From Paenibacillus sp. W2I17 (lineage in GTDB: Bacteria > Bacillota > Bacilli > Paenibacillales > Paenibacillaceae), in assembly GCF_030815985.1 (NCBI RefSeq), contig NZ_JAUSXM010000001.1:4774001-4838000 (forward strand): DNA of 64,000 nucleotides, written 5' to 3'. The notes beneath the pieces are model-generated. The model did no database searches. It saw only the letters and a program-made list of their open reading frames with translations, and was not told where the DNA came from. Below, piece after piece: positions 1,682 through 3,671 of the stretch (its first letter is position 1; every line of letters begins with the position of its first letter). The position numbers were made by a program, and so were the translations under genes.

Positions 1682-1753
1682 TCTATTTTCAGGTTTGATG
1701 CCAGACGTGTTTCCGATATAAAATAAGGATAGGATTGTCCGTTTTATAAAAGG

Positions 1754-1770
1754 ATTAAAATGGTTTTAAT
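1754..1770. promoter_or_regulatory. Palindrome ATTAAAA-TGG-TTTTAAT, candidate operator
   Basis: A perfect 7-bp inverted repeat with a 3-base centre lies 23 bases upstream of the -35 box of the quorum-sensing receptor gene. HTH receptors of the RRNPP group often bind palindromes near their own or neighbouring promoters, so it may be an autoregulatory site. This is inference from position and symmetry only; the tract is AT-rich, so chance is possible. Confidence 0.4.
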
Positions 1771-1793
1771 ACAAATTAGTTGAAATTATCATA

Positions 1794-1822
1794 TTGACCG
1801 ATACTTTCTAATTACATATAAT
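1794..1822 (+). promoter_or_regulatory. Sigma-A promoter of the receptor-peptide cassette
   Basis: TTGACC (1794-1799), a 17-base spacer and TATAAT (1817-1822). Transcription would start near 1829, about 50 bases before the TTG start at 1880. Confidence 0.75.
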
Positions 1823-1879
1823 TACTTTTGCATACCGATAATCCCGTTTATGTTTTTTATTTTGGAGGGTGGTGTTCGT

Positions 1880-3262
1880 TTGGAGTCGACAACCACGATA
1901 CGCGATCACTTGGAAAGTTATCTGAAGCGTGAACAGATGTCCATTAGTCATTTTTCGGAAACGTCAGGGATTAATTCGGGTACGCTCAGCAATATCTTGA
2001 ATAAAAATCGGCCTATTGCCATGCAGCAGTTGGATCGCATTACTTCCGCCATGAGACTGGAAGAAGGTTACTTCTATGAGTTATACATAGATGAGTGTTT
2101 TGTACACGCGACCCCGGACTGGCGAAGACTGGGACCCTTCCTTCATCGCTGTGCCGAGTTGGACAAGTTGGACTGTATTGAAGAGGTTATTCGTCTGATG
2201 ATGGATAATCTATCCTATATTCCTTTGTTATTTGATGTGGCTGAAGAATTCTACCAAGCAGGTAAATTCAAACCAGCCATTCTTCTATATGAAAACATTG
2301 CTGAAAGCGAGAAAATGCAACATTCCGAGCGGCTTGCACTCTGTCAGTACCGACTGTTCAGGCTGGGACTGACCAATGATCAGCACCGGAATCTGATTAT
2401 TGCATCTCGGTTCGAATATTATGTGGATCGGCTGGATGAACGCTACCAGTTGGATGCGCTTAACGAACTGATTAATGCTTTTGGAGCATTGCATAGATGG
2501 GACAAGGTTCAGGAGTTATCTGAAAAATTGAAAGTGAAAGCTTCCATCCATTATGAGATGAATGGCCGACGGAAACAAGAAGAGACCAAAAGACCAATTA
2601 TTTTCTATATTCTATACTCCGATCTAGCTGCAGGAAGTGCCTGTTATCATTTGAAGGACTACACTGGGGCACTTAAATATGTTTCTTTATATTCGGATAA
2701 TCGCTGGGTGAGGAACCCGGATAAAGATGAAATCGTAGTTATGAATCAGTTTCAAGAATGGGCTGAAGCTAATCGATATATATATCATTTAATGGGCGGT
2801 CATTTTGAGGTGTTACCTGATTATTTGGCGTATATCTCAACGAAGGAAAATGAGATATTCCCAGCGCTTTGTGATATTGTAACAGCGGCTAATCGCTATG
2901 ATAAGGATATAGATCATGTACTCAAACAGTATGAATCCTACTTCACTTATCAGGAACAGAGTAACCGAATTGGTAAAGTAAGCAGACAAGTTACAGATGA
3001 TCGATATTTACGACTTTTAGCAGACTTGGGCGCATATTATCTAAAGAAAGACGAGTATCATTTAGGTATAGAATTTGTGCTGGATAGTTTAAAATTTTCT
3101 ATTGAAATTAGCAGTGGACGAGGTATGCTTAGAGGTGTCGGACTGTTTGAGCAATACCGGGAATTTGCATCTGAGACGGCGAAACAGCAATACAAAATGA
3201 TAATTAGTGAGGTGCAGAAACTCAATGAAGAGAAAGTTGGCTTTGCTGATAGCTACCTGTAG
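1880..3262 (+). CDS. RRNPP-type HTH-TPR peptide receptor/transcriptional regulator (AloR-like)
   Basis: A 460-residue protein with an N-terminal Xre-type helix-turn-helix (about residues 5-65; SHFSETSGINSGTLSNILN is the recognition region) followed by an all-helical, TPR-like remainder with repeated A-x-x-Y and L-x-x-L-A-x-Y helices. TTG 1880 is chosen because GGAGGG (1864-1869) precedes it by 10 bases. The last 38 bases overlap, in another frame, a 46-codon gene for a secreted pro-peptide. This receptor-plus-overlapping-peptide layout is that of Rap-Phr, NprR-NprX and the AloR-AloP systems reported in Paenibacillus polymyxa. The expected role is a cytoplasmic regulator whose DNA binding is switched by the re-imported peptide. 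The targets are unknown; the Spo0E-like gene and the GntR-ABC operon just downstream are the closest candidates. Confidence 0.82.
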   Translation: MESTTTIRDHLESYLKREQMSISHFSETSGINSGTLSNILNKNRPIAMQQLDRITSAMRLEEGYFYELYIDECFVHATPDWRRLGPFLHRCAELDKLDCIEEVIRLMMDNLSYIPLLFDVAEEFYQAGKFKPAILLYENIAESEKMQHSERLALCQYRLFRLGLTNDQHRNLIIASRFEYYVDRLDERYQLDALNELINAFGALHRWDKVQELSEKLKVKASIHYEMNGRRKQEETKRPIIFYILYSDLAAGSACYHLKDYTGALKYVSLYSDNRWVRNPDKDEIVVMNQFQEWAEANRYIYHLMGGHFEVLPDYLAYISTKENEIFPALCDIVTAANRYDKDIDHVLKQYESYFTYQEQSNRIGKVSRQVTDDRYLRLLADLGAYYLKKDEYHLGIEFVLDSLKFSIEISSGRGMLRGVGLFEQYREFASETAKQQYKMIISEVQKLNEEKVGFADSYL

Positions 3263-3365
3263 TATCGTTGTATTCATCGTAGCCCCTGCTACGGAACCTG
3301 TCCCAGGCAAGGAAATCCCGAACCCCGAAATTATGAGACCCGCTGATCATGGATTTGGAACTTAA
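3225..3365 (+). CDS. Secreted signalling pro-peptide overlapping the receptor gene
   Basis: This 46-residue gene starts at ATG 3225, inside the 3' end of the receptor gene but in another frame, with GAGGTG (3208-3213) as ribosome site. It begins MKRKLALLIATCSIVVFIVA, a basic start and hydrophobic core typical of a Sec signal peptide. A proline-rich spacer follows, and the tail is MRPADHGFGT, ending at TAA 3363-3365. Phr, PapR, NprX and AloP precursors have this design: export, processing, then import of a C-terminal 5-10-mer through the oligopeptide permease. The mature signal is probably in the last ten residues (for example within ADHGFGT), but the exact cut is a guess. A terminator follows at 3374, closing a two-gene unit. 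Confidence 0.78.
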   Translation: MKRKLALLIATCSIVVFIVAPATEPVPGKEIPNPEIMRPADHGFGT

Positions 3366-3373
3366 TAAAGGTA

Positions 3374-3410
3374 AAGAACGCTTCTGATTTATTCAGAAGC
3401 GTTCTTTTTG
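3374..3410 (+). terminator. Intrinsic terminator of the quorum-sensing cassette
   Basis: AAGAACGCTTCTG pairs perfectly with CAGAAGCGTTCTT over 13 bp, then a T run. It lies 8 bases after the pro-peptide stop codon. Confidence 0.93.
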
Positions 3411-3500
3411 TGTATCAAAGTGGAAGAATAAGTATGTCGTATCTCACATGCGCTTATGATTGGCATAATACACTAAAATATGACAAAAAGGAGGGATACT

Positions 3501-3671
3501 ATGGATCGCCTGGATTTGATATCACGGATCGAAGATGCCAGACAATTGTTATATCGCATGCATATGGAATACGGCAGTCTGCTTCATCCGGAAGTGATCC
3601 AGCAATCCGTAGTCCTGGACGGGCTTATTAATCAATACAACAGAGCAAAGGTAGGAAAGGCGATGAATTAA
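3501..3671 (+). CDS. Spo0E-like aspartyl-phosphate phosphatase
   Basis: A 56-residue protein with the size and pattern of the Spo0E family: a short two-helix hairpin with LISRIEDARQLLYRM in helix 1 and V-x-x-x-S-x-x-LDGLINQY in helix 2, the place of the family's S-x-x-L-D signature. Spo0E proteins remove phosphate from Spo0A~P and so delay sporulation. ATG 3501 is preceded by AAAGGAGGG with good spacing. It sits between the peptide cassette's terminator and the GntR operon and seems separately transcribed. Its closeness to a peptide sensor recalls Rap-Phr control of the same phosphorelay, but a functional link here is only inferred. Confidence 0.8.
   Translation: MDRLDLISRIEDARQLLYRMHMEYGSLLHPEVIQQSVVLDGLINQYNRAKVGKAMN

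Follow-up and report, generated by a model that had tools for sequence, protein, structure and literature searches.

Does the 46-codon reading frame that overlaps the 3′ end of an HTH-TPR receptor gene encode that receptor's signal, and how do receptor and signal evolve together? The question is posed by a locus in a window of 64 kb (the whole stretch of DNA analysed) from a 7.0-Mb, single-contig Paenibacillus genome, which an initial annotation had read as a complete receptor-signal pair with the layout of Rap-Phr, NprR-NprX and Paenibacillus AloR-AloP. Comparative evidence indicates that it is a real pair of the known Paenibacillus signaling family (AloR-AloP, RRNPPA), and the genes are named here as aloR and aloP (Table 1). 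With AloR13-AloP13-spo0E of P. polymyxa ATCC 842 it shares an HTH-TPR receptor, a short precursor behind it (secreted in Alo13) and a Spo0E-like gene next (PMC7425212). AloP precursors are described there as 32-50 aa long, hydrophobic at the N-terminus and directly downstream of the receptor, with secretion and trimming seen by mass spectrometry. The family, its Spo0E neighbors and aloP reading frames partly overlapping aloR are thus already published (further papers bearing on novelty are PMC10075063, PMC9765709, PMC12700828 and PMC8605241). The likeness to Rap-Phr holds for the TPR receptor, the adjacent signal gene, signal-receptor coevolution and the many alleles (Even-Tov et al. 2016, PMC5199041), and fails in that Rap is described without a DNA-binding HTH whereas the window receptor has an HTH region.

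Table 1. Features of the aloR-aloP-spo0E locus, in window coordinates
Feature	Position	Strand	Basis
Conserved upstream block AAAAGGATT...TTAATACAAATTAGTTGAA, includes dyad 1754-1770	1748..1784	+	alignment, 48 orthologs
Promoter TTGACC-N17-TATAAT	1794..1822	+	site scan and ortholog alignment
aloR receptor, 460 aa, TTG start, N-terminal HTH and TPR-like superhelix	1880..3262	+	ORF, domains, model
aloR codons 201-282, segment following signal type (fixed residues 202, 203, 245, 247, 256, 259, 260, 262)	2480..2725	+	trees, fixed sites
aloR codons 421-460, 3′ end, largely following signal type (residue 435)	3140..3259	+	segment tree with two type changes; fixed site
aloP ribosome site GAGGTG	3209..3214	+	48/48 orthologs
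aloP signal precursor, 46 residues, hydrophobic N-terminus, Pro-rich spacer	3225..3365	+	ORF, conservation, dN/dS, protein database clusters
Predicted mature signal DHGFGT, residues 41-46	3345..3362	+	tail conservation; AloP13 analogy; cleavage inferred
Intrinsic terminator 3′ of aloP	3373..3407	+	scan; 45/48 orthologs with simple finder
Conserved block before spo0E (TATGTC.TA ... GATTGGCATAAT...CTAAAATATGACAAAA), candidate spo0E promoter/operator	3433..3488	+	consensus, 43 spo0E-bearing orthologs
Spo0E-like gene, likely regulated output	3501..3671	+	PF09388 E 2.8e-11; 43/48 orthologs

The HTH-TPR assignment of the receptor made initially agrees with several lines of evidence. Residues 10-59 match HTH_26 (E 0.0011, below the Pfam cut-off), and a profile search matched residues 17-76 to HTH controllers together with a few unrelated helical proteins. 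The predicted structure (pLDDT 89.9) contains an HTH region and a TPR-like superhelical domain, the latter being the criterion for the RRNPPA superfamily. Searching folds with this model returned generic TPR proteins as best matches, with NprR and Rap close behind; AimR was not among the 50 matches listed by either of two fold searches, and a single-sequence search found no relative in the PDB. A receptor 99% identical is present in Paenibacillus sp. PAMC 26794, named P. pabuli, P. xylanexedens and P. amylolyticus strains also carry close relatives, and a receptor encoded on a plasmid of P. polymyxa ATCC 842 is 42.6% identical. The HGxG tail and spo0E neighbor had suggested orthology with Alo13, a reading ruled out by the 32-35% identity to AloR13-like receptors preceding SHGRGG precursors (AloR13 being recognized via its published tail and Spo0E neighbor, not via an accession) and by a family tree of 58 receptors, in which the two fall into different well-supported, paralogous clades.

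A survey of 75 genomes of the same genus, all with some receptor match, yielded an ortholog (77-100% identity) in 48, the source genome included. A reductase gene lies upstream and a GntR gene downstream in every one of them; in the window the Spo0E-like gene is followed by the GntR-type regulator and then an ABC transporter ATPase. The single promoter called initially is the top promoter-like site in the 6 kb scanned, with 11 of 12 matches, in a scan that gave 18 sites against 14.1 expected from shuffling. It is retained as TTGA..-N17-TATAAT in 47 of the 48 orthologs: the -35 element is TTGACC in 41 and TTGAAA in six, the spacer is 17 in 47, and the -10 element is ACATATAAT in all. The single terminator was likewise found, both in the window and behind aloP in most orthologs. 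The aloR ribosome site, GGAGG, occupies 1864-1868. The palindrome noted upstream of the promoter (ATTAAAA-TGG-TTTTAAT) is present, but as a conserved operator it was rejected, since its arms are exact in just 9 of 48 orthologs; the flanks of the surrounding block are near-invariant, TTGTAATTAATACAA occupies the dyad position in 18 orthologs, and four fall outside the search pattern.

Evidence that aloP is a gene comes from its retention and its pattern of substitution. The 38-base overlap with aloR in a different frame (3225-3262), the GAGGTG site and the signal reading frame, all reported initially, persist in 48/48 orthologs, as do the ATG in the same register and the hydrophobic N-terminus, with frame lengths of 46-51 aa; the possibility that the small frame would not be conserved beside homologous receptors was thereby examined and set aside. 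Pooled pairwise dN/dS, computed from 38 distinct 46-codon sequences with the 5 of 48 longer frames left out, is 0.09 in the tail, 0.59 in the spacer and 0.34 over codons 14-46, against 1.16 and 1.49 in the other frames, and by this measure aloP is evolving as a protein outside the overlap. The expectation that the overlap would be conserved and the C-termini variable was therefore half right: outside the overlap no part of the frame is better conserved than the C-terminus, which exists in two alternative forms and varies between paralogs. Nor was the gene previously uncalled, as had been supposed, since 11 protein database clusters contain the frame, the window's own among them, two of them under the name 'hypothetical protein'. 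A small membrane or secreted peptide retained for some reason unconnected with the receptor is a very improbable alternative. The frame matches nothing in Pfam, NCBIfam or PHROG, and a hydrophobic N-terminus is by itself not diagnostic; against these points stand the constrained tail next to a variable spacer, the HGxG-tailed frames beside other AloR genes, and the way in which tail and receptor residues segregate as one, described below. Of 64 AloR loci inspected, a set with some duplicates, 33 have HGxG in the later part of the neighboring frame; among 20 loci of one P. polymyxa-like genome it occurs in two, and the remainder end in HGG or IGG or show nothing convincing under the filter used.

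The ADHGFGT tail of the initial annotation, which had placed the mature signal within the last 5-10 residues, can be narrowed to the last six. Tails among the orthologs are ADHGFGT (21), NDHGLGT (19), ADHGFGS (4), NDHGFGT (2), TDHGFGT (1) and FDHGLGT (1), giving 28 HGFG and 20 HGLG members, and D-H-G-[FL]-G-[TS] is found in 38/38 distinct 46-codon sequences, with residue 40 variable. Because the tail is so conserved, the hexapeptide DHGFGT is the probable signal. Residue 40 is not strictly tied to type (N in 19 HGLG and also in two HGFG sequences), which together with AloP13, where HGxG likewise lies within the last six residues as SHGRGG (PMC7425212), points to a hexapeptide.

The two tails provide a natural marker for asking which parts of the locus travel with the signal. 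On a tree of the whole receptor protein a single type change suffices, which taken alone would suggest that type simply marks a clade; trees of receptor segments, of flanking genes and of gyrB, separated from aloR by about 175 kb in the source genome, contradict that reading. The fewest type changes are 13 for codons 1-100, 11 for 101-200, one for 201-282, three for 283-350, five for 351-420 and two for 421-460, compared with one for aloP, 12 for the reductase, 14 for GntR and 10 for gyrB (the reductase and GntR trees each have 46 of 48 rows, the omitted rows being too short). Well-supported branches alone force seven, six and eight changes on the reductase, GntR and gyrB trees, respectively. 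A single HGLG clade is rejected by gyrB (AU p 8.7e-55), the reductase (2.9e-7), GntR (4.6e-15) and codons 1-100 (4.0e-51), 101-200 (5.3e-21) and 351-420 (7.4e-4), and is not rejected by codons 283-350 (0.051) or 421-460 (0.29). Five changes are required both by the receptor protein tree without residues 195-290 and 428-448 and by the DNA tree of codons 1-194 plus 291-420, although the columns left out of these backbone trees were picked after the fixed sites had been seen, unlike gyrB and the flanking genes. Signal type is more clustered than random on the gyrB tree (1-2 of 500 shuffles as low) and is not clustered beyond random on the GntR tree (234-240 of 500). Since type forms a single clade for aloP and for codons 201-282 but changes 10-14 times on gyrB and the flanking genes and 11-13 times on codons 1-200, the signal and this receptor segment appear to move together, and related species seem to have swapped the two jointly on many occasions.

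Site patterns within the receptor point the same way. Nine of the 184 variable sites in residues 1-448 are fixed between types, namely 202, 203, 245, 247, 256, 259, 260, 262 and 435, and none is fixed in the reductase (71 variable sites), GntR (37) or Spo0E (38, in 43 orthologs). Eight independent pairs can be drawn along well-supported branches of the gyrB tree, and in 8/8 of them every one of the nine sites agrees with type (sign test per site p 0.0078, uncorrected over 183 sites); the mean number of agreeing pairs per site is 0.57 for residues 1-200, 3.69 for 201-282, 2.28 for 283-420 and 4.25 for 421-448. Individual pairs are visibly mosaic. In 60-base windows of aloR, L036 (HGLG) and L013 (HGFG) are mostly 87-98% identical in DNA, with dips to 68-80% at codons 201-280, 78% at codons 421-440 and 69% in aloP, whereas L036 and L034, both HGLG, are 82-92% identical at codons 201-280 and 96% in aloP but 65-78% at codons 341-400. 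In the structural model, residues 202, 203, 245, 247 and 256 would sit in helices taken as the first of a TPR pair. Together with the trees, these patterns are strong indirect evidence that aloP and receptor codons 201-282 are partners, and the co-segregation is the best indirect evidence that the aloP frame encodes the AloR ligand.

What the two types mean functionally can be read in more than one way. HGFG and HGLG may be non-interchangeable pherotypes kept side by side, with the dialect switched by a cassette comprising aloR from about codon 201 onward plus aloP, and with the nine residues setting specificity; we regard the case for this as evenly balanced. ComQXPA of Bacillus relies on a membrane kinase and a modified peptide, whereas the system in the window has a cytosolic receptor and two types seen. 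Common to both would be the existence of distinct communication groups within a single signaling system (PMC4408185). A less probable but serious alternative is that the pair is real and the two tails are not dialects at all, being linked alleles that co-travel by recombination, with each receptor responding to either hexapeptide. F and L are alike in being bulky and hydrophobic, and aloP adjoins the receptor 3′ end, which tracks type with two changes as linkage predicts. Linkage alone, however, predicts a decay with distance, and the series running away from aloP is two, five, three and one changes for codons 421-460, 351-420, 283-350 and 201-282, such that the signal is linked more closely to a segment at a distance of 0.5 kb than to the intervening DNA. 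Residues 201-262, moreover, contain 28 of the 184 variable sites and eight of the nine fixed ones (post hoc hypergeometric 9e-7). The weaker association at codons 283-420 thus makes linkage to aloP insufficient, and we infer that a cassette of signal and specificity segment has recombined repeatedly, with selection keeping its parts matched. For aloR, intragenic exchange is the most economical account, unlike Rap, for which PMC5199041 reports no evidence of divergence via recombination between Rap homologs. Two exchangeable signal types also distinguish this locus from AloR13-AloP13, none having been noticed in the portions of PMC7425212 available, and no account of exchangeable types in Alo systems was found in the open-licence literature as judged by titles and abstract openings.

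The initial annotation passed over the Spo0E-like gene, the likely output of the pair. In 43 of 48 orthologs this gene separates aloP from GntR, and it is preceded by a conserved block that is bounded by TGTC(G)TA and TATGACA (inverse TGTCATA), encloses a candidate promoter and may be an AloR or Spo0A site. The source genome encodes three full-length AloRs (460, 447 and 461 codons, with tails DHGFGT, NGHGMGS and THGEGRL), and a Spo0E-like gene, three of the genome's six, stands 242, 316 or 1056 bases beyond the stop of each; a fourth, partial AloR-like match (25%) has no signal frame that we could see. In another genome a Spo0E-like gene adjoins an AloR13-like receptor with an SHGRGG tail. It is nevertheless conceivable, if unlikely, that the pair works and spo0E is a bystander, with AloR acting elsewhere, for instance on its own promoter or on the adjacent GntR-ABC genes. 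A terminator separates aloP from spo0E, GntR is downstream in all 48 orthologs, and five have an intact aloR-aloP and no spo0E (L116 (4486-4725), L019, L021, L022 and L023; P. illinoisensis, P. sp. ACRRY and P. xylanilyticus account for three). In these five the receptor stop lies 289-342 bases from GntR, versus 509-696 elsewhere, and in P. illinoisensis no frame of at least 40 codons lies wholly inside this interval; such orthologs may have lost the spo0E output or have others. Weighing against a bystander are the gene's presence with its upstream block in the great majority of orthologs, its recurrence no more than about 1.1 kb past the stop of each of the three full-length AloRs, and the direct control of spo0E shown for AloR13 (PMC7425212).

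Several further loci illustrate the variety of the family. The second aloR of the source genome (L002, G000:C1:5219763-5221106) encodes the shorter receptor whose aloP begins after the stop (+7), with tail NGHGMGS and Spo0E next. In Paenibacillus caui (L142:4300-4695) a 67% identical receptor is followed by a tandem aloP pair with tails GHGTGS and GHGMGS; the repeated unit takes in the receptor 3′ end and resembles the duplicated-signal intermediate described for Rap-Phr. Receptors of 50-58% identity at L059, L060 and L062-L065 have a Spo0E-like gene and no convincing aloP, and are possible orphan receptors. At L072, L078 and related P. polymyxa-like loci an HG[LM]GG core precedes about 10 more residues, so that the signal may be internal. 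AloR-like genes also occur on plasmids named Brevibacterium (two records) and Arthrobacter (one), outside the usual family range and possibly from misnamed hosts, and in Brevibacillus phage SecTim467 (KT151957.1:67468-68790; 26% identity, 95% of the query covered).

Taken together, we consider it very likely that AloR-AloP is a quorum-sensing pair controlling spo0E in which aloP and the receptor specificity segment are exchanged by recombination. The promoter-like site precedes aloR and the overlapping aloP, and the precursor, if it behaves as in the family, would be secreted and trimmed to its C-terminal DHGFGT. Re-import would proceed via an oligopeptide permease (the genome has 14 PF00496 matches to oligopeptide-binding proteins, 13 above cut-off), after which the peptide would bind the TPR groove of AloR. 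AloR13 activates the spo0E promoter in B. subtilis until SHGRGG turns it off (Voichek et al. 2020, PMC7425212). By the same logic peptide-free AloR would activate the Spo0E-like gene and the signal would end that activation, a regulatory sign that is borrowed, given how distant the window receptor is from AloR13-like receptors. Less Spo0E would then lift the brake on Spo0A and ease sporulation at high density, and by this analogy the pair probably times sporulation. Homologous recombination would swap aloP along with the specificity segment, leaving the DNA-binding half and the target gene in place, and would thereby switch the dialect of a species.

As a system the locus extends a known family. 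If the dialect reading is true, an Alo locus conserved on the chromosomes of 48 species would be a two-dialect system. Finding the positions that change Rap specificity has been named a key future challenge (Even-Tov et al. 2016, PMC5199041). The present comparison adds nine receptor positions whose natural variation follows that of a single signal residue across at least eight supported independent contrasts, and with this list the question of how receptors change specificity becomes directly testable. For the P. xylanexedens/P. amylolyticus group, DHGFGT is a concrete candidate signal for the timing of sporulation.
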